From positions 1 to 64,000 of the forward strand of contig CACFPS010000003.1 in the NCBI GenBank assembly GCA_902568235.1: a stretch of 64,000 nucleotides of DNA. The letters are read 5' to 3'. Both the position numbers and the translations under genes were made by a program. Within the stretch, counting starts at the first letter, position 1. Each line of letters begins with the position of its first letter. The stretch is from an uncultured Pelagibacteraceae bacterium. GTDB lineage: Bacteria > Pseudomonadota > Alphaproteobacteria > Pelagibacterales > Pelagibacteraceae. Below, in pieces: positions 25,441-64,000 of the stretch. Below the pieces are notes generated by a model. It searched no databases. It was not told the origin of the DNA and saw nothing but the letters and a program-made list of their open reading frames with translations.

Positions 25441-25445
25441 AATAT

Positions 25446-26699: not shown

Positions 26700-26707
26700 A
26701 AATAAAA

Positions 26708-26732
26708 AGGGCGGTTATTAAATAACCGCCCT
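26708..26732 (-). terminator. Intercistronic hairpin after the Pot-type SBP gene
   Basis: AGGGCGGTTA-TTAAA-TAACCGCCCT between the SBP stop (26769) and permease start (26699), minus-strand operon. Confidence 0.72.
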
Positions 26733-26768
26733 AAATATAATATATAATTATAGTCTTTAAAACTTAAA

Positions 26769-27884: not shown

Positions 27885-28003
27885 TTATCCTCCGTTTAAA
27901 CGTTTTTTTAAAAAACGGATTACAACAATAACGGTATTGAGAGTCAACTGCTCAATTCCTCTAATTAAGCTTTATTTTGCTATATAATTTAATGAAGAAT
28001 TAA

Positions 28004-29092: not shown

Positions 29093-29137
29093 AGAGAAGT
29101 TTATAAAACATTTGTTTAAAATTTTTGCAATAGTTAA

Positions 29138-42356: not shown

Positions 42357-42434
42357 TTTATTAAAGGTTGTTTTTTTTTCCTTATCAAGTTTTAATGCAC
42401 ACAGTTTAAACTAAAAATAACGGAGGGAAATTTG

Positions 42435-43457: not shown

Positions 43458-43477
43458 TTTTTAAAACTGTTCTTAAT

Positions 43478-43509
43478 ACTAAGAGCCCATAAGGGCTCTT
43501 AGTTTTTTT
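43478..43509 (+). terminator. Intrinsic terminator/attenuator after the ProX-like gene
   Basis: ACTAAGAGCCC-ATAA-GGGCTCTTAGT followed by a T7 run, before the permease start (43523). Confidence 0.88.
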
Positions 43510-43522
43510 GAAGAAAGTATAG

Positions 43523-44542
43523 ATGGGAAAATATAAGAAACACATTTTATATTCATTATATTTGATTGCTTTTGTTGCAATGGTAGTTGTTGCATACACG
43601 AGTTCAAAGTATAGACCAGAGAGCATTTCAGTATTATTTACAGATCTTTCTTGGTTAGGGAATTGGCCTAAATGGTTAGATCTTCCTTTAATGCCATTCT
43701 TGAACGAAGGGTTTGATAAACTTATAAAAGAATATGGAATGTTTTTTGAAGGAATTAATAATTTTCTTCTTGGTCTTTATACGCAGATGAAAAATTTTAT
43801 GGTTGGTCTTCCTTGGCCATTATTAATGATTGGAGTGATTGCACTTTGTTATTTCGCCAGTGGAAGAAATATGGGAACAACCATTATGGTTGCTTTTTGT
43901 GTTTTTTTTCTCGGTTTCCTTAGCCCTAGATATTGGGATAAATGTATTATGACAACATGTATAGTTGTCATTGGAATGTTGCTTTGTTTAATAATTGGTA
44001 TTCCAGTAGGAATAATGATGGCAAGAAACAAAAAAGTAAGAAATGCACTATTGCCTATTTTAGATTTAATGCAGACTATTCCAAGCTTTTGTTACTTAAT
44101 CCCAGGAATATTATTATTTGGTCTAGGAGCTGTACCTGCAATATTTGCAATTTTTGTTTATGCTGTACCTCCTTTAATAAGATTAACAGATCTTGGAATT
44201 AGATTAGTTGATAAAGAAGTAGTTGAAGCTGCAGAAGCATTTGGTGCAAATAAAAAACAAAAACTATTAGGTGTTCAATTACCTTTGGCTTTGCCCAATA
44301 TAATGCAAGGTATAAACCAATGTACTATGATGGCACTGGCAATGGTGGTAATAGCATCAATGATAGGAACTAGAGGAATTGGTGATGAAGTATTACTTGG
44401 ATTACAACAATTAAATGTTGGTATGGCTACAGAAGCAGGTATTGCAATTGTATTGCTAGCAATTATATTCGATCGAATTACACAATCTTATGGAGAAAAA
44501 ATTCAAGAAAGAACACATCATAAAAAAAAATTAAAAATTTAA
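43523..44542 (+). CDS. Glycine betaine/carnitine-type ABC permease (ProW-like)
   Basis: 339 aa; MARNKKVRNALLPILDLMQTIPSFCYLIPGILLFGLGAVPAIFAIFVYAVPPLIRLTDLGIR. Confidence 0.93.
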   Translation: MGKYKKHILYSLYLIAFVAMVVVAYTSSKYRPESISVLFTDLSWLGNWPKWLDLPLMPFLNEGFDKLIKEYGMFFEGINNFLLGLYTQMKNFMVGLPWPLLMIGVIALCYFASGRNMGTTIMVAFCVFFLGFLSPRYWDKCIMTTCIVVIGMLLCLIIGIPVGIMMARNKKVRNALLPILDLMQTIPSFCYLIPGILLFGLGAVPAIFAIFVYAVPPLIRLTDLGIRLVDKEVVEAAEAFGANKKQKLLGVQLPLALPNIMQGINQCTMMALAMVVIASMIGTRGIGDEVLLGLQQLNVGMATEAGIAIVLLAIIFDRITQSYGEKIQERTHHKKKLKI

Positions 44543-44546
44543 AGAT

Positions 44547-45572
44547 ATGAGCAAAATTGAAATTAGAAATGTATATAAAATATTTGGAGATAGTCCTTCC
44601 AAGGTTCTTCCAATGGTTCAGGAAGGAGCAAGCAAAGAAGAAGTTTTAGAAAAAACTGGACATACGGTTGGTCTTGATAATGTCTCATTATCTATTGAAG
44701 AAGGAGAAACTTTTGTATGCATGGGTTTATCGGGTTCAGGAAAATCTACTTTAATTAGACATATTAATCGTCTAATCGATCCAACTTCAGGGGAAGTGCT
44801 GGTTGAAGGTACAAATGTAATGGATTTAGATCAAAAAAGCTTAATTGAATTTAGAAGACACAAGATGAGCATGGTTTTTCAAAGATTTGGTTTATTCCCA
44901 CATAAGACTGTAATTGAAAATGTGGGCTATGGTCTAGAAGTTCAAGGAAAAACACTTGAAGAAAGAAATAAAATTGCAATGGAAAAAATTGAATCAGTTG
45001 GTCTTAATGGATTTGAACACCAATATCCAAATCAACTATCTGGAGGAATGCAACAAAGGGTGGGTCTTGCAAGAGCTTTAGCTACAAATACAAATGTAAT
45101 GTTAATGGATGAAGCTTTCTCAGCATTAGATCCTTTAATTAGAAGTGACATGCAAAAACAACTACTAGATTTACAAAGTGAATTAAAAAAGACAATCGTA
45201 TTCATTACGCATGATCTTGATGAGTCATTAAAATTAGGCGATCATATCGGAATATTAAATGGTGGAAGACTAGTGCAAGTTGGAACTCCAGTTGAAATTA
45301 TAATGAGTCCAGCAGATGATTATGTGAAAGCATTTGTTAAAGATGTAAACAGAGCAAAAGTACTTAAAGCTAAAGTTATTATGAGTTCAGCAAACGAAGC
45401 TAATGGAATTGATAAAAGCAATTTAATAAAAGTTAACGAAGATCAATTTATTGAAGAGTTTTTACCACAGGTGGTTTGCACAAATGCAAATTGTGAAGTA
45501 GTTGACAAAGAAGGAAACACAAAAGGATATATAACAAATAAAGAATTACAAAAATCTTTATCAAAATCATAA
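44547..45572 (+). CDS. Glycine betaine/carnitine-type ABC ATPase (ProV-like)
   Basis: 341 aa; SKVLPMVQEGASKEEVLEKTGHTVGLDNVSLSIEEGETFVCMGLSGSGKSTLIRHINRLIDPT, LSGGMQQRVGLARAL. Confidence 0.94.
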   Translation: MSKIEIRNVYKIFGDSPSKVLPMVQEGASKEEVLEKTGHTVGLDNVSLSIEEGETFVCMGLSGSGKSTLIRHINRLIDPTSGEVLVEGTNVMDLDQKSLIEFRRHKMSMVFQRFGLFPHKTVIENVGYGLEVQGKTLEERNKIAMEKIESVGLNGFEHQYPNQLSGGMQQRVGLARALATNTNVMLMDEAFSALDPLIRSDMQKQLLDLQSELKKTIVFITHDLDESLKLGDHIGILNGGRLVQVGTPVEIIMSPADDYVKAFVKDVNRAKVLKAKVIMSSANEANGIDKSNLIKVNEDQFIEEFLPQVVCTNANCEVVDKEGNTKGYITNKELQKSLSKS

Positions 45573-45587
45573 TTACATCCAATAATT

Positions 45588-46439
45588 ATGGAAAAAAATT
45601 TACGGAATATTGTAGATATTGAAAAATACCCTATTAACGATTTAAACTCTCCAAAAATAAAAGATCTAATAAAAAAATGCAAAGAAGATTTAGATCAATA
45701 TAGCTGTTCTACTATTCCTAACTTCATTCTACCAAAATCATTAAAAATCATGAATGAAGAGTTAGAAAAACAACTTGATGATGTTTATATGTCAAAAGAA
45801 AGCATAAATGCATACTTATATTCTAAAGATGACCCAACTCTTCCAAAAGATCATCCCAAAAGATTGTTTATGAAACGGTACAATGGTTATTTAAATTCAG
45901 ATTGTTTTCCTAGAGACTCTGAAATGAAATTTTTATATGAAACACAAGAACTTTTAAATTTTGTTTCAGCTTGTTTGGGAATATCTCCAATTTATAGGTG
46001 GGCCGATCCATTGGCATGTCACGCTTATAATGTTATGAAGCCTGAAGGTATTCTTCCTTGGCATTTCGATAGTTGTGAATTTACTTTAAGTTTAATGATA
46101 CAAAAACCAGATAAGGGTGGAATATTTGAATATTGTCCAAATATCAGAAGTCCAGGAAATGAAAATTTTGAAGAAGTTAAAAAAGTACTTAATGGAGACC
46201 GTACAAGAGTTCGACAATTAAAATTAGAACCAGGTGATTTACAAATATTTAAAGGGCGTTTTACACTTCATCGTGTAACTAAAATAGAAGGAAACCGTTC
46301 AAGATATCTATGTATACCGGCTTATGTTCTAGACCCTTGGAGAGTAAATACCCCTGAACATTCAAAGGCAATATATGGAAAAGTATTGCCTATTCATATA
46401 GAGAGAAATAAAGCTAGATCAGATGGTTTGGCTGATTAA
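45588..46439 (+). CDS. Fe(II)/2OG-type oxygenase (ArpA/HDSFEF-like family), substrate unknown
   Basis: 283 aa; LPWHFDSCEFTLSLMIQKPDKGGIFEYCPNIR (HxD) and LEPGDLQIFKGRFTLHRVTKIEGNRSRYLCIPAYV (distal H and R). Confidence 0.75.
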   Translation: MEKNLRNIVDIEKYPINDLNSPKIKDLIKKCKEDLDQYSCSTIPNFILPKSLKIMNEELEKQLDDVYMSKESINAYLYSKDDPTLPKDHPKRLFMKRYNGYLNSDCFPRDSEMKFLYETQELLNFVSACLGISPIYRWADPLACHAYNVMKPEGILPWHFDSCEFTLSLMIQKPDKGGIFEYCPNIRSPGNENFEEVKKVLNGDRTRVRQLKLEPGDLQIFKGRFTLHRVTKIEGNRSRYLCIPAYVLDPWRVNTPEHSKAIYGKVLPIHIERNKARSDGLAD

Positions 46440-47378
46440 ATGATTAAAAAAATTGCCGTAATAGGAACGGGAGTTATTGGCGTTGGTTGGATTGTGAGAT
46501 TTTTAGCTCATAATATGAAAGTAATAGCTTACGACAAAAATTTAAAATTAAAAAAAAAAATAATAAAAGAAATAAAAAAATCTCTTCCACATATTAAAAA
46601 ACTGTTTAATAAAAAAAAAATTAATCTAAGTAACTTTGAATACGTCACATCAATAAAAGAAGCAGTTAAATCAGCAGATTTTATTCAAGAAAATGTAATA
46701 GAAAATTATAAAATAAAAACTCAATTAATGAACACAATTGGAAAATATTCAAAACCTAACGCTATTATTTCATCAAGTTCATCTGGTTTGCTTCCAACAA
46801 AAATATATTCTAAATGTAAATTCCCAGGTCGAACAATGATTGGACATCCATTTAATCCTGTTTATTTGTGTCCTGGAGTAGAGATTGTTCCTGGAAAAAA
46901 ATCTCATAAAAAATTTCTCAATAAAGCTAACAAATTTTATAAATCAATCTCAATGAGTCCAATCATGGTTAAAAAAGAATTACCTGGTTATTTAGCGGAT
47001 AGATTGCAAGAAGCTTTATGGAGAGAAGCTCTACATATAATTAATGAAGGGTATGCATCAACTAAAGATTTGGATAGAGCAATAGAAGGTGGACCGGGAT
47101 TAAGATGGTCGCTAATGGGAACATTTTTAACATTTCATTTAGCCGGAGGTAAAGAAGGAATGAGACATATGTTAAAACAATTTGGTCCTGCTCTTAAATT
47201 GCCATGGACAAAATTAAAAGCACCTAAACTTTCTAAAAGATTATCATCAAAAGTTATAGAAGGAACTAAACAGCAAGCAAAAGGCAAATCGGTTAAAAAG
47301 ATATCTAGTATAAGAGACGAATATTTAGTCAAACTTCTAAAACTAAGAAAAAAATATGAGAATAAATTAAAAAAATAA
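46440..47378 (+). CDS. L-carnitine 3-dehydrogenase
   Basis: 312 aa; GTGVIGVGWIVRFLAHNMKVIAYD, IGHPFNPVYLCPGVEIVPG, GLRWSLMGTFLTFHLAGGKEGMRHMLKQFGPALKLPWTKLKAP. Confidence 0.88.
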   Translation: MIKKIAVIGTGVIGVGWIVRFLAHNMKVIAYDKNLKLKKKIIKEIKKSLPHIKKLFNKKKINLSNFEYVTSIKEAVKSADFIQENVIENYKIKTQLMNTIGKYSKPNAIISSSSSGLLPTKIYSKCKFPGRTMIGHPFNPVYLCPGVEIVPGKKSHKKFLNKANKFYKSISMSPIMVKKELPGYLADRLQEALWREALHIINEGYASTKDLDRAIEGGPGLRWSLMGTFLTFHLAGGKEGMRHMLKQFGPALKLPWTKLKAPKLSKRLSSKVIEGTKQQAKGKSVKKISSIRDEYLVKLLKLRKKYENKLKK

Positions 47379-47402
47379 AATAAAGTAGTATTAAAAAATT
47401 AA

Positions 47403-48188
47403 ATGTTTGGCATTTTAAAAAATAAAAAAATTATTATTTCTGCAGGAGCTTCGGGTATTGGCTGGGCTACAGCTAAAGTGTGTCTTTCTAAAGGAGCAAC
47501 GGTTTTTATAAGCGATATAGACAAAAAATTTCTAAAAAAAGTTAAAAAAAATCCTTTAAATAATAAAAGACTATTTTCATATGAGTGTGATGCTTCAAAT
47601 GAAAATGATGTAAAAAATTTATTTAAACAAATATCAAAAAAAACTAAAAAAATAGACGCATTAATTAACAACGTTGGTATCGCAGGCCCTACAGGTACAA
47701 TTGAAAAACTTAAATCAAAAGATTGGGAAGAAACATTAAAAGTAAATGTAATTAGTCATTTTTATTACTCAAAACTTGCGATTCCTATGCTTAAAAAAAA
47801 TAAAGGCGGTTCAATAATAAATTTATCTTCCGGAGCGGGTATTATGGGATTCCCTTTAAGATCGCCCTATGCTGCTAGTAAATGGGCTGTAGTTGGAGTA
47901 ACAAAAACTTTGGCTCTTGAATTAGGTAAGTTTAAAATTCGAGTCAATGCTATATGTCCAGGAACAATTAAAGGCGACAGAATGGTAAGAGTTATAAGAG
48001 ATAAGGCAAAGTTCTTAAAAATTTCAAAAAAAACAATAGAAAAAGAATTTTTATCAATGGCTTCTATGGGTAATTGGATATACGAAGATGATATTGGAAA
48101 GATGTGTAGCTTTTTGATTTCAGATGATAGCGCAAGAATATCTGGTCAAATTATTGGAGTAGATGGGAACGCAATCAGACTAGATTAA
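47403..48188 (+). CDS. SDR family oxidoreductase
   Basis: 261 aa; ISAGASGIGWATAKVCLSKGA, NNVGIAGP, YAASKWAVVGVTKTLALELG. Confidence 0.92.
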   Translation: MFGILKNKKIIISAGASGIGWATAKVCLSKGATVFISDIDKKFLKKVKKNPLNNKRLFSYECDASNENDVKNLFKQISKKTKKIDALINNVGIAGPTGTIEKLKSKDWEETLKVNVISHFYYSKLAIPMLKKNKGGSIINLSSGAGIMGFPLRSPYAASKWAVVGVTKTLALELGKFKIRVNAICPGTIKGDRMVRVIRDKAKFLKISKKTIEKEFLSMASMGNWIYEDDIGKMCSFLISDDSARISGQIIGVDGNAIRLD

Positions 48189-48197
48189 ATCATTGTT

Positions 48198-48971
48198 TTA
48201 ATTATTTATGAAATTAATTATATTATCTATGATTTGATCAGGACCTTCTATTAAAAAAGAATGTTTTAGTTTTGGTAATATTACTAGTTTTGAATTTTTA
48301 ATTTCATTGGCCATTTTTTCATTATGTTTAGGAGTGCATCCTCCATCATTTTCACCTGTCATTAATAGGCAAGGTTTTGTTAATTCTTTTAGCCAAGAAA
48401 TCATTTCTGTTTTTGCATAAATTCTAAATACATTTAAAAAAACATCTGGATCAGTATCAACTACTTGTTTTAATCTTCTTTTTACTAATTCAGATTTGTT
48501 TGTAATAAATTCATCAGTAAACCATCTGGTTGTCAATTTTTCCAAAGTTTTTTCTACACCATTTTCTTCCATTTCTTTAATTACACTCCAAACTTTTTTC
48601 GCGTCATCTTCAGATCTGCCTGCTACAGTTGATAACATTCCTACAGATAAAACTTTATCAGAATATTTTTTTGCGTAAGCGGGTGCAATCATTCCTCCTA
48701 GTGAGTGTCCAATAAAATGTCCTTTATCAATATTTGTTTTTTCCCTTATTCTCTCCAAGTCTAAAACTAATTCTTCTAAACCAAAATTTTTGTGAGTAAC
48801 GGGTGATTTTCCATGTCCACGCAAATCATATGTTATTACTGTAAAATTTTCTGATAGTTTTGGAGTTATAAACCTCCAAGCATCTTCTGCTGCACCTATG
48901 CCATGTGTTAAAAAAATTGCAGGTCCTGATCCAGTAATTGAATAATGACAATCTACTGCTTCGATTGACAT
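48198..48971 (-). CDS. Alpha/beta hydrolase
   Basis: 257 aa; FLTHGIGAAEDAWRFI, YDLRGHGKSP, FIGHSLGGMIAPAYA, MTGENDGGCTP. Confidence 0.9.
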   Translation of the reverse strand: MSIEAVDCHYSITGSGPAIFLTHGIGAAEDAWRFITPKLSENFTVITYDLRGHGKSPVTHKNFGLEELVLDLERIREKTNIDKGHFIGHSLGGMIAPAYAKKYSDKVLSVGMLSTVAGRSEDDAKKVWSVIKEMEENGVEKTLEKLTTRWFTDEFITNKSELVKRRLKQVVDTDPDVFLNVFRIYAKTEMISWLKELTKPCLLMTGENDGGCTPKHNEKMANEIKNSKLVILPKLKHSFLIEGPDQIIDNIINFINN

Positions 48972-48974
48972 TTT

Positions 48975-50009
48975 TTAAGCGACTTGTACGTTGGTTTTTT
49001 TAAAGTAAGGTATTATTTCTTCGCTTATCCTGTGCATAGAATCGATTAAATCTTTTTGGTTTTGCCCAAAGCTAGAGCTAACAATTATTTCATCAACACC
49101 TGCTTCTGCATAAACACTAAGTTTGTCTATCATTTCATTTAAAGGGCATATTAATAAGTTTTTCTTCATTTCCTCATATGTTTGATTTCTAGGTAAAGGT
49201 TCAACCTCCCCCTTTTTAACTTTTCCAGGTCCAGTAAACATATTATCAAATCTCTTATAATATTCGTATGCCAATTTATTTTTTTCTTCTGCGTCTTTTT
49301 CATCTTTTGCTAAGTAAGCCATTCTTTGCATAGATAATTTAAGCAATTTTCCTTGCTCTCCTAAAATGTCACAACCTTCTTTAAATGCATTTACTCTTTG
49401 TATTAAAAGATCTTTTGATCCAGACAAGACTGTGGATTGTACATGAAATCCTCTAGAGGCTGCATCCTTAATGCTATTTAAATCCATCGCAGCAATCATC
49501 ATTTGAATAGGATTGCTAATTGGTCTTGGCATTATAGTAATAGATTCAAAGTTATAAAATTTTCCTTTATAAGATACTTCTTTGTCTTTTAATAATAATT
49601 GCAAAACTTCTAAGGACTCTACAAATTTTTCTTTTGATGTTTCTATAGGGGTTCCTAAACTTTTCATTTCCCATGCAAAAGCACCTCGGCCAACTCCTAA
49701 AATTAATCTGCCTTCAGTTAAAATATCGGCTGTTACAACTTCACCTGCATAAGTTCTCATATCATGCAAAGGAAGTACTGAGATCCCAGTGGTTATTTTT
49801 ATTTCTTTTGTTAATGAAGCTATTTTAACTGCCATCTGTAATGGCGAAGGCATCATTAAAATATTTACTAAATGATGTTCAGGTATTGAAATAGTTGAGT
49901 ACCCAAGTTCTTCTGCCAAAATTGCCTGATCTAACATATTATCAAAATGCGTTTTTGATCCAATTTTAGGATCAGGCATATAACTGGTTAAAAAATGATT
50001 AAAATCCAT
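48975..50009 (-). CDS. LLM class flavin-dependent oxidoreductase
   Basis: 344 aa; AEELGYSTISIPEHHLVNILMMPSPLQMAVKIASLTKEIKITTGISVLPLHDM, GRLILGVGRGAF. Confidence 0.9.
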   Translation of the reverse strand: MDFNHFLTSYMPDPKIGSKTHFDNMLDQAILAEELGYSTISIPEHHLVNILMMPSPLQMAVKIASLTKEIKITTGISVLPLHDMRTYAGEVVTADILTEGRLILGVGRGAFAWEMKSLGTPIETSKEKFVESLEVLQLLLKDKEVSYKGKFYNFESITIMPRPISNPIQMMIAAMDLNSIKDAASRGFHVQSTVLSGSKDLLIQRVNAFKEGCDILGEQGKLLKLSMQRMAYLAKDEKDAEEKNKLAYEYYKRFDNMFTGPGKVKKGEVEPLPRNQTYEEMKKNLLICPLNEMIDKLSVYAEAGVDEIIVSSSFGQNQKDLIDSMHRISEEIIPYFKKTNVQVA

Positions 50010-50064
50010 ATTCCATTTTTAACATTTGAGATTTTTATTTTATTATTAGCTTTAATATTTGTCA

Positions 50065-50949
50065 TTACTTGTGTTTAACAAGTTTAAGCTTTTCTCTTGT
50101 TTCCGCAGGTGTCATTGTTGAAACACCAAGATCATTAACTATCCTTATTGCCTTTTCAACTAACTGTGCATTCGTTGCAAGTTTTCCTTTGGACAAATAT
50201 AAGTTATCTTCTAATCCTACTCTTGGATTTCCTCCCATGATTACTGTTTGAGCAACAAAAGGCATTTCATTTCTTGAAATTGCAAAACCAGACCAAACTC
50301 CTTCTTTAGGCATAATATCTTTCATTGCTTGCATTGCTAAAGGAGTTGCTGGAGCGCCCCATGGAATTCCTAAACACATTTGAAACATAGGAGGATCATC
50401 AAGCAATCCCTCTTTATATAATTGTGCGCCAAACCACATATTTCCTAAATCAAAAGCTTCTATTTCTGGTTTAACTTTAATTTCTTGTAATCTTTTTGCA
50501 GCTTTTCTTAAATCATTTGGTGTGTTTACTGTAATTACAGAACTGTCACCAAAGTTTAAAGTTCCACAATCTAGTGTACAAATTTCAGGTAAAAATTGTT
50601 CTGCATTTGCAATTCTTTCCATTACATTCGCCATGTCGGTCATAGGACCAAATTCAAGTGGATTCTTACCTTGTCCAATATCCAAATCTCCCCCCATGCC
50701 TGTTGTTAAATTTAAAATTACATCTGTTTCACTAGATCTAACTTTATCAACAACTTCTTTGTATAACTCAAGTCTTCTACTAGGTGTTCCGTCTTCTTCT
50801 CTAACATGAATATGGGCTATTGCCGCTCCTGCTTTAGCCGCTTCTATAGCCGCTGTTGCAATTTGTTCTGGCGTTTTAGGTAAATCTGGATGCTTCCCAG
50901 CTGTATCACCCGATCCAGTAACTGCACACGATATAAAAACTTTGCTCAT
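50065..50949 (-). CDS. BKACE family beta-keto acid cleavage enzyme; probable 3-dehydrocarnitine cleavage
   Basis: 294 aa; FISCAVTGSGDTAGKHPDLPKTPEQIATAAIEAAKAGAAIAHIHVREEDGTPSRRLELY; carnitine cluster context. Confidence 0.88.
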   Translation of the reverse strand: MSKVFISCAVTGSGDTAGKHPDLPKTPEQIATAAIEAAKAGAAIAHIHVREEDGTPSRRLELYKEVVDKVRSSETDVILNLTTGMGGDLDIGQGKNPLEFGPMTDMANVMERIANAEQFLPEICTLDCGTLNFGDSSVITVNTPNDLRKAAKRLQEIKVKPEIEAFDLGNMWFGAQLYKEGLLDDPPMFQMCLGIPWGAPATPLAMQAMKDIMPKEGVWSGFAISRNEMPFVAQTVIMGGNPRVGLEDNLYLSKGKLATNAQLVEKAIRIVNDLGVSTMTPAETREKLKLVKHK

Positions 50950-50984
50950 TTATTTTTAAATTAAAGTATATTATCTTAATAAAT

Positions 50985-51713
50985 ATGGAAAGATCAGAAA
51001 TATTAAATGATTTAGCTGCTGTTTTTAGATGGACGGCTAAATTGAATATGCATGAAGGAATAGCTAACCATTTCAGCGTATGTCTACCAGATAGCGATGG
51101 GAGCTTTTATGTCAATGGTACCGGTACGCATTTTAGCAATATTAAAGCTAGTGATTTGGTATTGATTGAGAATAAAAATTTTGAAGAAATGAAAAAAAAA
51201 CCTGAAATTGTTGATCCTACGGCAATAAATATTCATGGAGCCATTCATAAAAAAGTTCCAAATGCAAAATGCATACTTCATGTACACTCAAAATATGCAA
51301 CAGCATTATCATGTTTGAAAGACCCCACTCTTCCTCCTATAGATCAAAACACTATGAGATTCTATAGCCGTGTAGCAGTTTATGGAGATTTTGGAGGATT
51401 AGGTTTTGAAGAAGAATCAGAAAAAATGGCTAACAGTATTGGGAATCGTAATATTCTTTTGCTAGCCAATCATGGAATTTTAACAGCCGGCCCTACAATT
51501 GCTCGGGCATTTGATGATTTATTTTATTTTGAAAAAGCGTGTGAAACGTACATAACCGCATTATCTACTGGAAAAGAATTAAATATAGCAAGTCCAGAAG
51601 TTGCAGAAAAAACTGCTCAAGACTGGGAAAATTATTCTACGGATATGGCAGAACTTCACTTGAAAGCTATAAGATCAATCTTGGATTCTGAAGATCCAAG
51701 TTATAAGAATTAA
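50985..51713 (+). CDS. Class II aldolase/adducin family protein
   Basis: 242 aa; HEGIANHFSVCLPDSDGSFYVNGTGTHFSNIKASDLVLIE, CILHVHSKYATALS, LLLANHGILTAGPTIARAFDDLFYFEKACE. Confidence 0.9.
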   Translation: MERSEILNDLAAVFRWTAKLNMHEGIANHFSVCLPDSDGSFYVNGTGTHFSNIKASDLVLIENKNFEEMKKKPEIVDPTAINIHGAIHKKVPNAKCILHVHSKYATALSCLKDPTLPPIDQNTMRFYSRVAVYGDFGGLGFEEESEKMANSIGNRNILLLANHGILTAGPTIARAFDDLFYFEKACETYITALSTGKELNIASPEVAEKTAQDWENYSTDMAELHLKAIRSILDSEDPSYKN

Positions 51714-51717
51714 ATTT

Positions 51718-52185
51718 ATGTCAGTCCATCTTGCTACAAGAAAAATAAAAAAAGAATGGACAGATTATAATGAACATATGAACATGGCTTACTATGTGTT
51801 AATTTTTGATGAAGCATGGGAGATAATTTTAAACAAATTCAAAATGGGTGGTTCAAATGCACAAATTACAAAAAGAAGTACTATGGTTGTAGAGACTCGA
51901 ACAACATATAATAATGAAGTTAAAGAAAATGATGAAGTAGAGGTTATTTTAACTCACTTTGATCATGACAAAAAAAGATTGCACTTAAAATGTGAAATGT
52001 ATGAAAAAAAAACAAATACATTGGCAGCAACCTTGGAAAGTATATCTCTGTATATTGATCTAAATAAAAGAAAAGTAACAGAATTTGAAAAAGATAAATT
52101 AAAAATTATGGATGAATTTATAAATAATCATAGAAATAATTTTAATTCAGAAAACTTGATTTTATCTGGTAAATTAAAAAAATAA
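51718..52185 (+). CDS. Acyl-CoA thioesterase, probable betainyl-CoA thioesterase
   Basis: 155 aa hotdog-fold; KIKKEWTDYNEHMNMAYYVLIFDEAWEIIL; carnitine cluster context. Confidence 0.78.
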   Translation: MSVHLATRKIKKEWTDYNEHMNMAYYVLIFDEAWEIILNKFKMGGSNAQITKRSTMVVETRTTYNNEVKENDEVEVILTHFDHDKKRLHLKCEMYEKKTNTLAATLESISLYIDLNKRKVTEFEKDKLKIMDEFINNHRNNFNSENLILSGKLKK

Positions 52186-52188
52186 ATT

Positions 52189-53022
52189 ATGGAAATAAAG
52201 TTATTATCAGGAGCTCTTGGAGCTGAAATAAAAGGAATAGATCTTACTGATATTTCTGATGAAAATTTTAAAAAAATTAATGATTTATTATTAGAACATA
52301 AAGTTATTTTTTTTAGAGATCAACTATTAACAGAAGAGCAACATATTGCTCTAGCAGAAAAGTTTGGGCCTTTAGAAACTCATGCATATGTAAAAGGTTT
52401 AGAAAATTATCCTGAAATTGTAAGAATTATAAAAGCTGAAGATGAAAAAAACCAGTGGGGTGAAAACTGGCACAGTGATGTAAGTTATAATTTTAAACCA
52501 ACTAAAGCTGTAATTTTAAAATCTATAAAAATTCCACCTGTTGGAGGTGACACATGTTTTTCTAACATGGAGCTTGCTTGGGAAACTTTAGATAAAAAAA
52601 TAAAGGATAAAATAAAAGATAAAAAAGCAGTACATAGTTCTTTAGGTGCTGAGTTTTTCTTAGAAAATTATAAGAAAATGGAAGGAAACAATAAAAAAAA
52701 CTATGATGAATATTCCAATGATCACCCAATAGTCAGAACTCACCCTGAAACAGGAAAAAAAATACTATTTGTGAATTGGACTTACACGAAAAAAATAATT
52801 GGTCTAGATCAAAATGAAAGTGATGAGATATTAAAAAAAATATTTGAACATCAAGCTAGGCTGGAATTAACCTGTAGATTTTCTTGGACAGAAAATACTG
52901 TTTGTATTTGGGACAATAGAAGCGTTATTCATTTTGCAATAGCAGATTTTTACCCTGGAAAAGGTCTGGGTTTTGAAAGAATAATGGATAGGATAGCTAT
53001 TGAAGGAGATCATCCACAATAA
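52189..53022 (+). CDS. TauD/TfdA family Fe(II)/2OG dioxygenase
   Basis: 277 aa; GAEIKGIDLTDISDENFKKINDLLLEHKVIFFRDQLLTEEQHIALAEKFGP, NWHSDVSY, WDNRSVIHFAIADFYPGKGLGFERIMDRIAIEGD. Confidence 0.9.
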   Translation: MEIKLLSGALGAEIKGIDLTDISDENFKKINDLLLEHKVIFFRDQLLTEEQHIALAEKFGPLETHAYVKGLENYPEIVRIIKAEDEKNQWGENWHSDVSYNFKPTKAVILKSIKIPPVGGDTCFSNMELAWETLDKKIKDKIKDKKAVHSSLGAEFFLENYKKMEGNNKKNYDEYSNDHPIVRTHPETGKKILFVNWTYTKKIIGLDQNESDEILKKIFEHQARLELTCRFSWTENTVCIWDNRSVIHFAIADFYPGKGLGFERIMDRIAIEGDHPQ

Positions 53023-53025
53023 ACA

Positions 53026-53562
53026 ATGCACATATTAGACAAAATTATTTCTAACTTTAAAAATAACAAATCTCTCTATATTGGTGAAAAAATAACAATG
53101 GCAGAACATATGATCCAATCTGCAATGTTGGCTGAAAAAGCAAAATCAAATAATGACATTGTTTGCTCCTGTTTACTTCATGATTATGGTCATTTTATTA
53201 TTGAAGACCCAGATAAGTTAGTAAAAAATAAAAAAGATGGTGAACATGAAAGAATCGGCTACGAATATCTTAAAAAATTTTTCAATAAAGAAATTGTTGA
53301 GCCAATAAAATATCACGTAATAGCAAAAAGATATTTGGCCAGAGAGATAAAATATTTTAACTTTTTATCTGAAGCATCAAAAACAAGTTTAAAACTGCAA
53401 GGTGGGCCGCTAAATAATAAAAAAAGTAAAGAATTTGAAAAAAAAGACTATTTTAATAACTCTATTTTAGTTCGAAAATTTGATGAAGCTGCAAAAAAAA
53501 CAGATATGAAAATGAAATCAATAGATGATTATAAATCTTTATTAAAATCAAAATTAATATGA
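53026..53562 (+). CDS. HD-domain protein, PhnZ/TmpB-like (putative mixed-valent diiron oxygenase)
   Basis: 178 aa; LYIGEKITMAEHMIQSAMLAEKAKSNNDIVCSCLLHDYGHF, YxxE followed by H..Q and HD; downstream EHERIGYEYL and KYHVIAKRYL. Confidence 0.72.
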   Translation: MHILDKIISNFKNNKSLYIGEKITMAEHMIQSAMLAEKAKSNNDIVCSCLLHDYGHFIIEDPDKLVKNKKDGEHERIGYEYLKKFFNKEIVEPIKYHVIAKRYLAREIKYFNFLSEASKTSLKLQGGPLNNKKSKEFEKKDYFNNSILVRKFDEAAKKTDMKMKSIDDYKSLLKSKLI

Positions 53563-55139
53563 AATTTGACTACATAATTATTGGAGCAGGAACTGCCGGC
53601 TGCGTTCTTGCTAATAGATTAACTGAAAATGGTCAAAACAATGTGGCAATTTTTGAAGCTGGTAAACCAAGTGATATATGGAAAGTAAACATGCCACTTG
53701 CAATATTATATACAATGCATGATCCGAAATATAATTATAAATATTATTCTGAACCAGAGCCTCATTTACAAAATAGAAAATTATTCTGTCCGAGAGGTAA
53801 AATGATTGGCGGATGTTCGGCTCACAATGGAATGGTGTTTGTAAGAGGGAACCCTAATGATTATGAAAGATGGGCTTCTTTTGGATTAAAAGATTGGTCT
53901 TATGAAAAAGTTTTACCTTATTTTAAAAAAATAGAAACATGGTCAGAAGGAGAAAATGAATATAGAGGCGGCAATGGAATACTTCCAGTTAATCAATCAA
54001 AAAATGACAATCCCTTATTCAAAGCTTTCATAGACTCAGCTGGAGAAGCTGGATACAAAATTAATAACGATATGAATGGTAAAGAACAAGAAGGATTTGG
54101 AATGTATGATGTAACTATTCATAAAGGAGAAAGAGCTAGTGTTTCTAGATATTATTTAAATCCAGCTAAAAAAAGAAAAAATTTAAAAGTATTTAGTGAG
54201 TCTTATGTGGAAAGAATAATTTTCGATGGAAAAAAAGCTATTGGAATTGAAGTTAAAATTAAAAACAAAGTAGAAAAAATTTATTCAAATAAAGAAGTAA
54301 TATTAAGTGGAGGTTCAATTAATTCTCCACAATTACTTATGCTTTCAGGTGTTGGACCAGTAGAGCATTTAAAAGAAAAAGGAATAAAGATAGTGCACGC
54401 TTTAGAGGGAGTTGGTAAAAATTTACAAGATCATTTGGAAACTTATGTTCAACAAGAATGTAAAACATCTGATACTTTGTATTCTTATATTAACAAATTG
54501 AATATGTTGAGGGTTGGAATTCAATGGTTTTTAACAAAAAGAGGGCCCTGCTCTGCTTCATTTTTAGAGGCAGGGGGTTTTTGTAAATCTTCTGCTGAAA
54601 GAGAATATCCAAATATTCAATTTCATTTTTTTCCAGCATTTGTAATTGATCATGGATTGGTTGATCCTGATAGACACGGATACCAACTGCATGCAAGTCC
54701 TAATCATCCTAAAAGTAGAGGTTATGTTGCGTTAAATAGTTCAAATCCATATGATTATCCCAAAATTCAATTTAATTATTTAGAGCATGAGGATGATCTT
54801 AAACAAACAATTGAATGCATTCATGTTGCAAGAAAAATACTAAGTCAAAATTCATTAAAACCTTATGCGGGAAAAGAAATTGGACCAGGAGAGGATGTGC
54901 AAACTAATGAATTATTTGAAGAATACATTAGATCAAAAGCAGAAACTGCTTACCATCCTTCTTGTACTTTAAAAATGGGAGTAGATGAAATGGCAGTAGT
55001 AGATGAAAAATTAAATATACATGGGTTACAAAATATTAGGATAGTTGATGCCTCTGTCATGCCTGAAATTACAAGTGGAAATTTAAATGCTCCAACTTTG
55101 ATGATTGCAGAAAGAGCTGCTGATTTTATTTTAAATTAA
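53559..55139 (+). CDS. GMC family oxidoreductase (choline dehydrogenase-like)
   Basis: 526 aa; DYIIIGAGTAGCVLANRLTE, PRGKMIGGCSAHNGMVFVRGNPNDYERW, AYHPSCTLKMG, IRIVDASVMPEITSGNLNAPTLMIAERAAD. Confidence 0.92.
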   Translation: MKFDYIIIGAGTAGCVLANRLTENGQNNVAIFEAGKPSDIWKVNMPLAILYTMHDPKYNYKYYSEPEPHLQNRKLFCPRGKMIGGCSAHNGMVFVRGNPNDYERWASFGLKDWSYEKVLPYFKKIETWSEGENEYRGGNGILPVNQSKNDNPLFKAFIDSAGEAGYKINNDMNGKEQEGFGMYDVTIHKGERASVSRYYLNPAKKRKNLKVFSESYVERIIFDGKKAIGIEVKIKNKVEKIYSNKEVILSGGSINSPQLLMLSGVGPVEHLKEKGIKIVHALEGVGKNLQDHLETYVQQECKTSDTLYSYINKLNMLRVGIQWFLTKRGPCSASFLEAGGFCKSSAEREYPNIQFHFFPAFVIDHGLVDPDRHGYQLHASPNHPKSRGYVALNSSNPYDYPKIQFNYLEHEDDLKQTIECIHVARKILSQNSLKPYAGKEIGPGEDVQTNELFEEYIRSKAETAYHPSCTLKMGVDEMAVVDEKLNIHGLQNIRIVDASVMPEITSGNLNAPTLMIAERAADFILN

Positions 55140-58347: not shown

Positions 58348-59514
58348 GTGAAATTTGGATACTTTTGTAATACAACGAACTGGAATAAAAAATCTTATTC
58401 AAAAATTTTAGAAGAGGCTAGAGAAATAACAGTTTATTGTGACCATCATAATTGGAATTCTATTTGGTATACTGAACACCATTTTAACCATGAGGGAATG
58501 GAATCTTGTCCAAATCCATTATTAATGTGTACTGATGCTGCTGCAAGAACAAAACAAATAAGAATTGGTCAAGCTTGTAATGTTATAACTTTTCACAATC
58601 CAATAAAACTAGCTGAAGATGTTGCTATGTTAGATCAAATGTCCAAAGGAAGAGTTGAGTTTGGAATTGGTAGAGGTGTGTATGGTAGAGAGGCCATAAA
58701 CATGAATATAGAAGCTGACCTAAAAGACCAAGCAAAAAATTTTAGATTATTTGAAGAAACATTAACAATAATAAAAAAAGCTTGGACTAAAGATTTTTTT
58801 AATCATACTGGAGAATTCTATACTTATCCAACACCAAATTTTATTTGGCAACATGATATGAGCCCACCAAATGAAAATTTTTTGGATTTAAAAACAAATG
58901 AAATAAAAAAAATTAGCGTTATTCCAAAACCTTTTCAAAAACCTCATCCTCCAATTTGGCAAGTTGTTGATGGAGAAAGGTCTATACAGTGGGCAGCAAC
59001 AAATGGATTAAATACTATAATGTGGATTCCTACGGTTAAAGCTTTAAAAAAACGTTTTGACATTTATAAAGACGCAAAATCAAAAGCCGAAGATAGAGAT
59101 GTTCCGTTAGGTGAAGGAATTTCTCTTGTTAGAGATATGTTTGTTGCAGAAACTATGAAAGATGCTGAAAAACTTGCAGGAGATCACATTATAAATTACA
59201 TGAGATGGGTTTGTCATTGGAGAGGTTTGGGTAATCATATGGATCCAGGTGAAGATTTGCCAGAAACCAAAAGTAAATTAGATCTTTTAAATTATGATTT
59301 TTTACACAAAAGAAATTTACTTTTTGGTACTCCTGATTATGTTGTAGAAAAAATAAAAGAACTTCAGTCAGAATTAAATCTACAAAATCTTCAAGTTTGG
59401 TCAAACTTTCCGGGTATTGATCACGAAGCTTGTATGAGAAGTATTAAATTATTTAATGATGAAGTAATTCCAAAAATTAATAATAAAAAATCAAATATTC
59501 AGAAAGCAAGCTAA
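58348..59514 (+). CDS. LLM class flavin-dependent monooxygenase
   Basis: 388 aa, GTG start after AAGGAG; SIWYTEHHFNHEGMESCPNPLLMCTDAAARTKQIRIGQACNVITFHNPIKLAEDVAMLDQMSKGRVEFGIGRGVYGRE. Confidence 0.92.
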   Translation: MKFGYFCNTTNWNKKSYSKILEEAREITVYCDHHNWNSIWYTEHHFNHEGMESCPNPLLMCTDAAARTKQIRIGQACNVITFHNPIKLAEDVAMLDQMSKGRVEFGIGRGVYGREAINMNIEADLKDQAKNFRLFEETLTIIKKAWTKDFFNHTGEFYTYPTPNFIWQHDMSPPNENFLDLKTNEIKKISVIPKPFQKPHPPIWQVVDGERSIQWAATNGLNTIMWIPTVKALKKRFDIYKDAKSKAEDRDVPLGEGISLVRDMFVAETMKDAEKLAGDHIINYMRWVCHWRGLGNHMDPGEDLPETKSKLDLLNYDFLHKRNLLFGTPDYVVEKIKELQSELNLQNLQVWSNFPGIDHEACMRSIKLFNDEVIPKINNKKSNIQKAS

Positions 59515-60101
59515 TGGAATTAAAATTAAGAAAATTTGTTAAATTTGTAGATAAAACTTTTATTGAAGGAGGAAAAAAAGCAAAGGAACCTGTTTTATTA
59601 GTTTCTGTTGCCGCGGTAATTCAAAATCCTTGGACAGGAAAAGGTTTTGTTGAAGATTTAAAACCGGAAATATTAGATTTAGCTCCGAAACTTGGAGACA
59701 TTTTAGTTCCGGAACTTATAAAAGAAATTGGATCAGGTGATAAAATTTTAGCTTACGGAAAAGCTGCCATGGTAGGTCTAAATGGAGAAATAGAGCATGC
59801 GTCAGCTTTTATACACACTTTAAGATTTGGTAATAAATTTAGAGATGCAGTTGGTGGAACTGCTTATCTAAGCTTTACAAATACTAGAGGTCCAGCGGGT
59901 TCGAAGATTTCGCTACCAATGATGCATAAAACTGATGCAGGACTTAGACCTTATTATCTAACTCATGAATTTACAATTCAAGATGCGCCTAACGAAGATG
60001 AAATAGTTGTTGCTATAGGTGGTGCTCCGGCAGGAAGAGCCCATGCTAGAACGGGTGACAGATATCAAGACATGAAAGAGATGGGTATTGAGCCTAAATA
60101 A
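59514..60101 (+). CDS. AA_synth (PF06684/DUF1185) family protein
   Basis: 195 aa; RKFVKFVDKTFIEGGKKAKEPVLLVSVAAVIQNPWTGKGFVEDL, YGKAAMVGLNGEIEHASAFIHTLRFGNKFRDA, GGAPAGRAHARTGDRYQDMKEMG. Confidence 0.85.
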   Translation: MELKLRKFVKFVDKTFIEGGKKAKEPVLLVSVAAVIQNPWTGKGFVEDLKPEILDLAPKLGDILVPELIKEIGSGDKILAYGKAAMVGLNGEIEHASAFIHTLRFGNKFRDAVGGTAYLSFTNTRGPAGSKISLPMMHKTDAGLRPYYLTHEFTIQDAPNEDEIVVAIGGAPAGRAHARTGDRYQDMKEMGIEPK

Positions 60102-60864
60102 TAAAACTTACTATAATTATATTGATAAAAAAACTATACCAATAGTTTTTATTCATGGAGTTGGTTTAGATCACAAAATGTGGTCTCCGCAGATAAATTA
60201 TTTTAAAAACTTTTCTACTATAACTTATGATCTTCTTGGACACGGAAGAACTCCTTTAAAAAAAGAAGAAATTAAATTCAATGACTATGTGGAGCAATTA
60301 TTAGCTATAATTGAATTTTTAAAATTAGAAAAAATTAATTTAGTAGGTTTTTCTATTGGATCTTTAATTGCTTTAAATTTTGCATCAGATTTTCAAAACA
60401 AATTAAATTCTTTAACTTTAATAGCAACAACTTACAAAAGAACTTCTGAACAAAGGCAAGCAGTTATTGATAGAGTAAATTTAGCAAAATTAAATAAACC
60501 AATTTCTCAACTAGCTATGAAAAGATGGTTTACAGATGAATATCTAAAAAAAAATCCAATTATTTATGAAGAATTCACAAAAATTTTAACTAAGGATGGC
60601 GAGGATCAAAAAAATTTTATTAAAGCTTATGAATTATTTGCCCATTATAAAGATGATTTAGAAAAAATTAAAAAAATAAATACAAAAACTCTTGTTATGA
60701 CCGGATCTAATGATCCAGGATCTACCCCTGAAATGTCGAAAAAACTATCAAATGATTTGAATAATTCTTTATACACTGAAATAAATAATGGCAAACATCT
60801 CTGTAGTATTGAATGCGCAGATGATGTTAATATTAATATTAAAAAATTTATAGAAAATGGCTGA
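60088..60864 (+). CDS. Alpha/beta hydrolase
   Basis: 258 aa, TTG start inside the previous gene; VFIHGVGLDHKMWSPQ, YDLLGHGRTPLKK, LVGFSIGSLIALNFA, MTGSNDPGSTPEMSK. Confidence 0.88.
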   Translation: MSLNNKTYYNYIDKKTIPIVFIHGVGLDHKMWSPQINYFKNFSTITYDLLGHGRTPLKKEEIKFNDYVEQLLAIIEFLKLEKINLVGFSIGSLIALNFASDFQNKLNSLTLIATTYKRTSEQRQAVIDRVNLAKLNKPISQLAMKRWFTDEYLKKNPIIYEEFTKILTKDGEDQKNFIKAYELFAHYKDDLEKIKKINTKTLVMTGSNDPGSTPEMSKKLSNDLNNSLYTEINNGKHLCSIECADDVNINIKKFIENG

Positions 60865-62338
60865 AATAAAAAAATATAAAATGTTTATAGACGGTGAATG
60901 GGCAGACTCTGAAAGTAAAAAAACTTTTCAATCCTTAAATCCAGAAAATAATGAACCTTGGGTAGAAGTTCCTGAGGCTAGTGAAAAGGATGTGGATAGA
61001 GCCGTAAATGCTGCACAAAAAGCTTTTGAAGGAACATGGTCAAAATTATTTCCAAGAGAAAGAGCTAAATACTTAAAATTCATTGCAGAAGAACTTAGAC
61101 AAAATGCTGAACTTCTGGGAAAAATCGAAACTATTGATACTGGAAAACTATTTAAAGAAACAAAAACTCAAGCAAATTATATTGCTGAATATTATGATTA
61201 CTACGCAGGCCTTGCTGATAAAGTAGAAGGAACTGTTTTACCAATTGATAAACCTAATATGCAAGTAATAACTACTAGAGTACCAATTGGAGTTGTTGCA
61301 GCAATTATCCCTTGGAACTCTCAAATGCTACTAACAGCAGTAAAGTTAGCTCCTGCGCTTGCAATGGGAAATGCAGTAGTTATTAAATCTTCTGAGCTTG
61401 CACCTGCAACACTATTTGAATTTGCAAAATTAATTGAAAAAGTTGGAATACCAAGAGGAGTCGTAAATATAATTTCTGGTTTTGGAGAACCATGTGGAAG
61501 AGCTTTAACGTCTCACAAATTAGTAGAAAGAGTTGCTTTCACTGGAGGACCTGAAACAGCGAGACATATAATAAGAAATTCAGCTGATAATTTATCTCAA
61601 GTAAGTCTTGAGCTAGGAGGCAAGAGTCCTGTTGCTGTATTTGAAGATGCTGATCAAGAAAATGCTTTAAATGGAATTACTGCTGGTATTTTTGGTGCAA
61701 GTGGACAAAGTTGTATAGCTGGATCAAGACTTTATATACAAAATAGCATTTATGATAATTTTTTAGAAAAAATTGTAAATAAAGCAAACAAAATAAAATT
61801 GGGCTCCCCAATGGACTCTGAAACTCAAATGGGACCTTTAAGTAGCTTGAAACAATTAGAGATTATTGAAAAAAATATTAAACTTACTTTAGACCAAGGC
61901 GGAAAGCTTAGATGTGGAGGCAAAAGACATGCTATGTCAAATAAAGGATATTATTTTCCTCCTACAGTAATTGAATGTGATAATCATAATTTACCAACAG
62001 CTGAAAATGAATTATTTGGACCTGTTCTATCTGTGATGAAGTTTAATGATGAAAACGAAGTAATCAGTAAAATGAATGATAATCAGTATGGTTTATCATC
62101 TGGAATTTATACTAAAGATATAAATAGAGGGTTAAGAGTATCAAATGCAATACGTGCAGGAATTACATTTGTAAATACTTATAGATTAATTTCTCCTTCT
62201 GCTCCTTTTGGTGGAATGAAAGATAGTGGTTATGGAAAAGAAGCAGGAATTGAATCAATTAAAGACTATACAAGAATTAAAACAACTTGGTTTAATACAT
62301 CTGACAAACCTATGGATGACCCATTCACAATGGGATAA
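60857..62338 (+). CDS. Aldehyde dehydrogenase family protein
   Basis: 493 aa; IIPWNSQMLL, FTGGPETARHI, LELGGKSPVAVF, GQSCIAGSRL. Confidence 0.93.
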   Translation: MAEIKKYKMFIDGEWADSESKKTFQSLNPENNEPWVEVPEASEKDVDRAVNAAQKAFEGTWSKLFPRERAKYLKFIAEELRQNAELLGKIETIDTGKLFKETKTQANYIAEYYDYYAGLADKVEGTVLPIDKPNMQVITTRVPIGVVAAIIPWNSQMLLTAVKLAPALAMGNAVVIKSSELAPATLFEFAKLIEKVGIPRGVVNIISGFGEPCGRALTSHKLVERVAFTGGPETARHIIRNSADNLSQVSLELGGKSPVAVFEDADQENALNGITAGIFGASGQSCIAGSRLYIQNSIYDNFLEKIVNKANKIKLGSPMDSETQMGPLSSLKQLEIIEKNIKLTLDQGGKLRCGGKRHAMSNKGYYFPPTVIECDNHNLPTAENELFGPVLSVMKFNDENEVISKMNDNQYGLSSGIYTKDINRGLRVSNAIRAGITFVNTYRLISPSAPFGGMKDSGYGKEAGIESIKDYTRIKTTWFNTSDKPMDDPFTMG

Positions 62339-62346
62339 ATAAATAA

Positions 62347-63204
62347 TTGACTAAAAATCATACATTATTAATTTTATTTGTTATGTTTTTGCTTGGGAGT
62401 GCTTATCCTACAGGAAAACTTGGTGTTAATGCATCAGTACCACCAATTTTGTTTGGTGCTTTAAGAATGGGAATTGTTTTTATTTGTTTAATTCCTTTTT
62501 GCAAATTTATCATACCAAATAAAAAGTATATTTTGCCTTTAATCGCTTTTTCATTGTCGATGGGTGTAGGTGTAAACTTATTTTTATATTTAGGAATAAA
62601 TGCTTCTAGTATAATGTCGCCACTAGTTATAGCTGCCCAACTATCAATTCCTATTGCAATTATTTTAAGTTCCATATTTATTGGTGAGTCAATAAATTAC
62701 AAACAATGGATTTTAATAATTACAGCTTTTTTTGGAATTGTATTAATAGGATTTGATCCAAAAATTGCAGATGAAATAATAGGATTTCTACTGATATGTG
62801 GTATGGCTTTTTTTTATGGATCTTCACAAGTTTTTTCAAGATATCTTAAAGATTTAGACATTAAATTTACAAATGCTGCAATGGGTTTTATTGCGTTTGT
62901 TATTTTATTAATTGCTTCTATCTTTTTTGAAGGAAATACAATTTCTAATCTGAAAAATTTAAATCTTCAAGCATGGGTAATGGTATTCCATGCTGGAATT
63001 CTTTGTTCTTTATTTGGACATATGTTGATGTTTTATCTTTATAAATTTTATCCAGTAGGACAAGTTCTTCCCTTTTATGCTTTGTTTCCCGTATTTGGAA
63101 TGTCATTAAGTTTTTTCATATTTGGTGAAATTCCAACACTCATTATGGTAATTGGTGGAGTTATAGTGATAACTTCAGTCTATTTACTCCAAAAAACTAG
63201 GTAA
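62347..63204 (+). CDS. EamA/DMT family transporter
   Basis: 285 aa, TTG start; multi-TM EamA pattern. Confidence 0.87.
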   Translation: MTKNHTLLILFVMFLLGSAYPTGKLGVNASVPPILFGALRMGIVFICLIPFCKFIIPNKKYILPLIAFSLSMGVGVNLFLYLGINASSIMSPLVIAAQLSIPIAIILSSIFIGESINYKQWILIITAFFGIVLIGFDPKIADEIIGFLLICGMAFFYGSSQVFSRYLKDLDIKFTNAAMGFIAFVILLIASIFFEGNTISNLKNLNLQAWVMVFHAGILCSLFGHMLMFYLYKFYPVGQVLPFYALFPVFGMSLSFFIFGEIPTLIMVIGGVIVITSVYLLQKTR

Positions 63205-63278
63205 TTTTCTCATTGAAAAAATATTCCAATAAGATTTAATTTTGTTTTTATAAATTGTTAACAATTAAAGGGAATAAT

Positions 63279-64000
63279 ATGAAAAAATTAGTTTTAGCTG
63301 CTTTTATATTTGTATCGACAATTTCAACAAATGTATTAGCAGATATTAAAATGGGAGTCATTTTAGGATTTACAGGTCCTATTGAATCTCTAACTCCTGC
63401 AATGGCTGCATCTGCGGAACTTGCTTTTAAAGAAGCTTCAGATTCAGGTTCGTTGTTAGGAGGACAAAAAATATCAGTGGAAAGAGCTGACTCAACTTGT
63501 GTGGACTCTGCTGCTGCAACTGCAGCTGCCGAAGGTTTAGTTTCGGGCGGTGTTGTAGCAATCATGGGTGCTGACTGTTCTGGTGTTACTGGTGCGATAG
63601 CAACTAACGTTGCTGTTCCAAATGGAGTAGTAATGATATCTCCATCTGCAACTTCTCCAGGATTAACAGATTTGAATGATAATGGTTACTTCTTCAGAAC
63701 CGCTCCATCAGATGCTAGAGGTGGTCAAATTTTAGCAGATATTACAAAAGACAGAAAAGTTAAATCACTTGCTGTGACTCATACAAACAATGACTACGGA
63801 AAAGGATTGGCTGATGTTTATGTTGCCGCTGTAAAAGCTCATGGTATTAATGTAACTGTAGTAACTGCTCACGAAGAAGGTAAAGGTGATTATGGTGCTG
63901 AAGTTGCAACTTTAGCTGCTGCTGGCGGAGATGCTTTGGCAGTTTTAGGTTACTTAGACCAAGCAGGTGGAAGTATAATCCAAGGATCATTGGACTCGGG
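63279..64000 (+). CDS. Branched-chain amino acid-type (Liv) ABC transporter SBP, truncated at window edge
   Basis: ATG 63279 after AAAGGGAAT; MKKLVLAAFIFVSTISTNVLADIKMGVILGFTGPIESLTPAMAASAELAFKEAS ... VVAIMGADCSGVTGAIATNVAVPNGVVMISPSATSPGLTD. Missing from the ORF track because it runs off the end. Confidence 0.9.
   Translation, partial: MKKLVLAAFIFVSTISTNVLADIKMGVILGFTGPIESLTPAMAASAELAFKEASDSGSLLGGQKISVERADSTCVDSAAATAAAEGLVSGGVVAIMGADCSGVTGAIATNVAVPNGVVMISPSATSPGLTDLNDNGYFFRTAPSDARGGQILADITKDRKVKSLAVTHTNNDYGKGLADVYVAAVKAHGINVTVVTAHEEGKGDYGAEVATLAAAGGDALAVLGYLDQAGGSIIQGSLDS

Follow-up and report, generated by a model that had tools for sequence, protein, structure and literature searches.

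The nearest described relative of the genes considered here is the trigonelline (tgn) operon, tgnABCDEF, of Acinetobacter baylyi. As Perchat and colleagues are said to have found in 2018, TgnAB opens trigonelline at C5-C6 and TgnC oxidises the product; hydrolysis by TgnD then reportedly gives succinate semialdehyde along with CO2, methylamine and formate, the semialdehyde being oxidised in turn by TgnE together with TgnF. TgnF, a member of family PF06684 (AA_synth, DUF1185), has been reported to stimulate the TgnE-dependent oxidation of succinic semialdehyde in A. baylyi (PMC7913881). The stretch of DNA analyzed here (the window) comprises positions 1 to 64,000 of contig CACFPS010000003.1 from an uncultured Pelagibacteraceae (SAR11) bacterium (assembly GCA_902568235.1, 1,119,665 bases, 79.7% complete); its GC content is about 30%. 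Near its end lies a compact unit encoding, in this order, a luciferase-like monooxygenase (LLM), a PF06684 protein, an alpha/beta hydrolase and an aldehyde dehydrogenase (ALDH). On balance, we favor the view that this unit is a SAR11 catabolic module resembling the trigonelline operon, in which the oxygenase has been replaced.

All six open reading frames between position 58,348 and the end of the window were confirmed on the plus strand; their positions and profile matches agree with the overlaps and families assigned in an earlier, sequence-only reading, and none of the frames contains an internal stop. The LLM and PF06684 genes have one base in common at 59514 (TAATG), the PF06684 and hydrolase genes overlap at 60088-60101, and the hydrolase and ALDH genes overlap at 60857-60864. 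The PF06684 protein matches its family profile over the whole length (positions 1-175 of 175), the hydrolase carries a GxSxG nucleophile motif and the ALDH has both its Cys and Glu motifs. The four overlapping genes at 58348-62338 are real. The closest relatives of the LLM gene are found in uncultured Pelagibacteraceae single-cell genomes, at up to 96% identity.

This LLM was found in 80 SAR11 loci, 69 of which are long enough to show the whole cassette. The four genes occur on one strand and in the same order in 69 of these 69, a recurrence that places the gene order far from chance, and the LLM and PF06684 genes abut in all SAR11 loci but one. The synteny of PF06684 with LLM, hydrolase and ALDH genes, which the sequence-only reading had proposed as a check, is thereby borne out. 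That reading had described all six genes as one catabolic cassette; the four-gene part, PF06684 included, is conserved, and the two transporter genes fall outside it. The DMT exporter gene lies directly 3′ of the ALDH gene in only 12 of 61 SAR11 loci. The Liv binding protein follows the cassette in 49 of 61 loci and not in the other 12, and it is about as common in cassette-bearing SAR11 genomes (21/26) as in cassette-free ones (28/35, five of the 28 being only 41-45% identical). We therefore excluded both as unit members. Since the surroundings vary and the binding protein is equally common without the cassette, we regard the cassette as a four-gene accessory unit with transporters as mere neighbors. 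Counted by PF06684, 26 of 61 genomes of the same genus carry it, as do 12 of 40 in another family of the order. Past position 64000, where the sequence-only reading had suggested looking for livHMGF, livM, livH, livF and livG do occur (approximately 65048-68927); they lie on the minus strand and converge with the binding protein gene. At other loci, L098 and L100 among them, the four genes are placed between ectoine-type genes (EutA-like, DoeA-like) and genes that by sight look like panB and guaA. The window has homologues (62-93%) of this ectoine-type set, comprising EutA-like and DoeA-like proteins and a polyamine/betaine-type ATP-binding cassette (ABC) transporter, at 24589-31054 on the minus strand; in L098 and other SAR11 genomes the set adjoins the LLM cassette and is divergently transcribed.

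For comparison with the trigonelline operon we used an annotated plasmid locus of Acinetobacter sp. PK01 (L225), in which tgnA, tgnB and tgnC are named in the record; its PF06684 protein, hydrolase and succinate-semialdehyde dehydrogenase (SSADH) were taken as TgnF, TgnD and TgnE by position. The order there is PF06684, hydrolase, tgnA, tgnB, tgnC, permease, SSADH. In both systems a PF06684 gene is followed by an alpha/beta hydrolase gene, and both encode an LLM oxygenase and an ALDH of the TgnC type. The window ALDH is 51% identical to TgnC as against 33% to the SSADH TgnE, and in the tree it falls with TgnC in one clade (support 100/98) with the SSADHs outside, which rules out its being an SSADH. 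Furthermore, the window PF06684 protein is 55% identical to TgnF and groups with it in a clade of cassette-type proteins (support 100/100). The oxygenase is different. In the LLM tree the SAR11 proteins form one clade with those of a sister family and of a distant alphaproteobacterium (G311), the Tgn and Rhizobium etli types form another, and other LLM families lie between them; forcing both cassette types into a single clade costs 35 log units and is rejected (approximately unbiased test, p = 0.0044). Given this separation and an identity to TgnB of 25%, we rejected the SAR11 LLM as a TgnB orthologue. By these sequence relationships, the back end is common with the tgn operon and the oxygenase has been exchanged.

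The cassette also contains no TgnA flavin reductase and no TgnE-type SSADH, the best match to the latter in the genome, which is 79.7% complete, being 37% identical, and its LLM gene comes first. As oxygenase, reductase and SSADH all depart from the tgn pattern, the unit is tgn-like and not a member of the tgn operons. The five-gene core of the PK01 locus, PF06684-hydrolase-flavin reductase-LLM-ALDH, also occurs in Rhizobium phaseoli, Sinorhizobium meliloti pSymA, Leisingera, Ruegeria, Thioclava, Klebsiella, Chimaeribacter and Aquabacterium, where the LLMs are 59-73% identical to TgnB. A cluster in R. etli and Mesorhizobium ciceri (L032, L033) also brings PF06684, hydrolase, LLM and ALDH together; however, its LLM is on the Tgn side (41% to TgnB, 28% to the SAR11 LLM), it also encodes a flavin reductase and a protein resembling carboxymuconolactone decarboxylase, and its PF06684 protein is divergent. 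In Aquabacterium olei the tgn-type operon (L222:4226-9585) adjoins genes annotated as type III glutamate-ammonia ligase, class II amidotransferase, GlxC and glutamate synthase-like, which we read as putative methylamine/N-methylglutamate genes (GMAS/N-methylglutamate synthase-like), in keeping with methylamine release.

An oxygenase from another clade would fit a different ring. Degradation of trigonelline itself would instead require that the LLM be a non-orthologous replacement of TgnB and that flavin reductase and SSADH be supplied from elsewhere in the genome. The TgnC-like ALDH and TgnF-like protein would suit such a route, and particles from seawater have been shown to contain trigonelline (PMC8269262). 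We nevertheless consider it quite unlikely, in view of the separate oxygenase clade, the lack of an SSADH in the cassette with only a 37% match in the genome, the presence of a true TgnB type (55% to TgnB) in another streamlined alphaproteobacterium (L208), and the far lower abundance of trigonelline relative to homarine (PMC8269262), for which the values were later corrected downward (PMC10134881).

In the distant alphaproteobacterium G311 (L197), a flavin reductase gene precedes LLM, PF06684, hydrolase and ALDH genes in that order, the LLM being 56% identical to that of the window; this cassette adjoins Rieske oxygenase and DAO genes. Because a flavin reductase adjoins its relative there, the window LLM is best read, by analogy, as the oxygenase partner in a two-component monooxygenase dependent on reduced flavin mononucleotide (FMNH2). 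PF03358 FMN reductase-like proteins, of which each SAR11 genome has one or two, are candidate partner reductases. A search in the small family of G311 gave no further lead on this LLM type, and viral contigs yielded no match. LLM matches on plasmids (Peribacillus, 32%) sit in a cluster of another sort, alongside RibB and acyl-CoA genes.

These relationships suggest a reaction scheme. Supplied with FMNH2 by a reductase encoded elsewhere, the LLM would act on an N-substituted pyridinium-type ring, adding O2 across one of its C-C bonds, and the opened product would carry both an N-formyl amide and an aldehyde group. Oxidation of the aldehyde would then fall to the TgnC-like ALDH and removal of formate to the hydrolase, aided by the PF06684 protein, whose gene directly precedes that of the hydrolase; the remaining enamine would break down or be reduced. 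The sequence-only reading had proposed oxygenative ring opening or N-oxidation of an imported nitrogen compound, followed by hydrolase and ALDH; that the LLM opens a nitrogen ring and that hydrolase and ALDH act after it we regard as very likely, except for the order of the steps. It had placed hydrolysis before oxidation of a semialdehyde; because the ALDH belongs with TgnC, which is said to act ahead of TgnD, ring opening is probably followed by aldehyde oxidation and then by hydrolysis. Its view of PF06684 as an unassigned missing enzyme has likewise been overtaken, as the relative TgnF already has a place in the trigonelline operon (PMC7913881).

Many polar residues of the PF06684 protein are invariant (H95, H101, R110, R125, K139, R145, R179 and R183), and its gene directly precedes that of the hydrolase in most of the cassettes, with the R. 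etli type as an exception. From these two features we infer that the PF06684 protein should act on the substrate or product of the hydrolase. Structures of the family, 2QTP (SPO0826) and 3BYQ (BB2672), have a Bacillus chorismate-mutase-like fold (PMC2954203). Both belong to the same family as the cassette protein, but SPO0826 is of a tandem-gene subfamily (74-85% identity to its members) whose clade is apart from the cassette-type proteins. This second subfamily is found widely among Alphaproteobacteria, frequently as two genes in tandem, and its separate clade takes in the SPO0826 type.

A chemistry with no nitrogen ring is also conceivable, in which the LLM acts as a type II Baeyer-Villiger enzyme on a ketone, a PcaD-like hydrolase opens the resulting ester or lactone and the ALDH oxidises the product. 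PcaD models are indeed the best match of the hydrolase, far below the cut-off, and the LLM weakly matches 3,6-diketocamphane monooxygenase (4uwm). Yet PcaD is equally the best match for the hydrolases of tgn-type operons, no cassette contains an alcohol dehydrogenase, and the ALDH and PF06684 proteins are of tgn type; we therefore judge the lactone route distinctly unlikely.

The compound opened in the ring-opening scheme is probably an N-methylpyridinium carboxylate, with homarine (N-methylpicolinate) as the leading candidate, which we put forward tentatively and at somewhat less than even confidence. Opening at C5-C6, one oxidation and one deformylation would convert homarine to N-methyl-iminoglutarate, which would give 2-oxoglutarate and methylamine or, after reduction, N-methylglutamate. 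This route would need one ALDH and no SSADH and so matches the content of the cassette. We favor homarine on account of this chemical fit, the marine setting and the need for an oxygenase other than TgnAB; homarine is a betaine of marine plankton, and TgnAB has been argued, on steric grounds, not to suit it (PMC8269262). The predicted products, N-methylglutamate or its oxo acid, are in line with a conserved homarine (hom) pathway involving N-methylglutamate dehydrogenase, as the report of Ferrer-Gonzalez et al. 2026 is cited in PMC13390433. A betaine-like substrate would also fit the neighborhood, with a carnitine/choline catabolism region upstream in the window.

Several observations weigh against a tgn-like module acting on homarine. 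The window hydrolase is only 29% identical to the protein in the TgnD position, no closer than the R. etli type, and the 25% identity of the LLM to TgnB is lower still. No PF01613 flavin reductase was found in any of the 61 same-genus SAR11 genomes, the complete genome G012 included; a PF01613 protein occurs somewhere in 29 of 40 sister-family genomes. The cassette shows no association with N-methylglutamate-synthase-like genes, which are present in 16 of 26 genomes with it and 17 of 35 without it. Among the genomes sampled, this LLM type seldom occurs outside Pelagibacterales; a search of 399 Pseudomonadota genomes gave one weak relative outside SAR11, and such scarcity would be odd for a widely distributed homarine operon. 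Finally, a thiamine diphosphate (ThDP) enzyme of about 565 aa, which has no place in the proposed scheme, is encoded between the LLM and PF06684 in 9 of 10 sister-family loci examined, in the same position in one SAR11 subclade (LLM support 99/94), and in the PF06684 cassettes L209 and L216 of other alphaproteobacteria. This enzyme is closest to sulfoacetaldehyde acetyltransferase models, below the cut-off, and its gene is absent from the window cassette and most SAR11 cassettes.

The ThDP enzyme is needed by neither trigonelline nor homarine chemistry, and its recurrence in these relatives would be explained if the same module logic served another N-heterocycle, for instance a pyridinium betaine of another kind or a pyridine carboxylate that is unsubstituted, and the ThDP step had been lost in the window lineage. 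We think this rather unlikely, as the many SAR11 cassettes that do without the enzyme argue that it is not essential, and the proposal singles out no candidate ring. In a broader form, to which we give limited credence, PF06684, hydrolase and TgnC-type ALDH would form a back end of general use in opening N-heterocycles, with swapped LLMs; the SAR11 ring would lie outside trigonelline and homarine, the electron donor would be other than PF01613, and the ThDP step would operate in relatives and not in the window lineage.

Among heterotrophs of the surface ocean SAR11 is the most abundant, and in plankton the pools of nitrogen-containing betaines such as homarine are sizeable and turn over fast. 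If the tgn-like reading is right, the patchy cassette would mark SAR11 strains able to use nitrogen-ring betaines, and PF06684, with solved structures and no settled activity, would be tied to one type of pathway. An oxygenase swap on a constant back end would also offer a direct route to substrate prediction for many related operons. The abstract of the 2026 homarine paper reportedly names a hom operon that is also found in SAR11, and that paper may already cover the SAR11 cassette; in that case what would still be new is how the unit relates to tgn, its missing flavin reductase and the variant with the ThDP enzyme.

Table 1. Features of the cassette, its flanks and related loci (window coordinates unless a locus is named)
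Feature	Position	Strand	Profile match and predicted role
LLM (luciferase-like) oxygenase, 388 aa	58348..59514	+	Bac_luciferase E 1e-44; predicted ring-opening component of two-component FMNH2-dependent monooxygenase
PF06684 (AA_synth, DUF1185) protein, 195 aa	59514..60101	+	AA_synth E 8e-65; predicted TgnF-like accessory enzyme or isomerase
Alpha/beta hydrolase, 258 aa	60088..60864	+	Abhydrolase_1 E 6e-25; predicted deformylase/amidohydrolase, TgnD-like position
Aldehyde dehydrogenase, 493 aa, TgnC type	60857..62338	+	Aldedh E 6e-161
EamA/DMT transporter, flank, outside unit	62347..63204	+	EamA E 8e-28
Liv-type binding protein, flank, outside unit	63255..64000, on to ~64460	+	Peripla_BP_6 E 1e-26
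ThDP enzyme	L082:5835-7532; L073:5128-6834; L216:10967-12667

The carnitine/betaine/choline catabolism region occupies window positions 42432-55139. It includes a ProXWV-like ABC transporter, a carnitine 3-dehydrogenase-like 3HCDH protein (46440), a BKACE gene (50065), a thioesterase resembling the C-terminus of carnitine dehydrogenase (51718), a TauD-like oxygenase (52189) and a choline dehydrogenase-like GMC protein (53559). Within it, at 48198-50949 on the minus strand and next to the BKACE gene, is a second LLM of 344 aa with its own PcaD-like hydrolase. This LLM is 28% identical to Tgn-type LLMs and forms a long branch beside the Tgn/R. etli clade; no relatives of it were found in neighboring SAR11 loci that retain BKACE. 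A plus-strand gene at 45588-46439, flanked by the betaine ABC transporter and the carnitine dehydrogenase-like gene, encodes a protein that weakly matches the 2-oxoglutarate-dependent halogenases HalD and WelO5 (E 1.6e-11 and 3e-5). The CsiD family usually comprises glutarate hydroxylases, and a member (PF08943, E 1.5e-135) is encoded downstream of the Liv transporter genes, at L002:7722-8645, which corresponds to approximately 69722-70645 in window numbering, on the minus strand.

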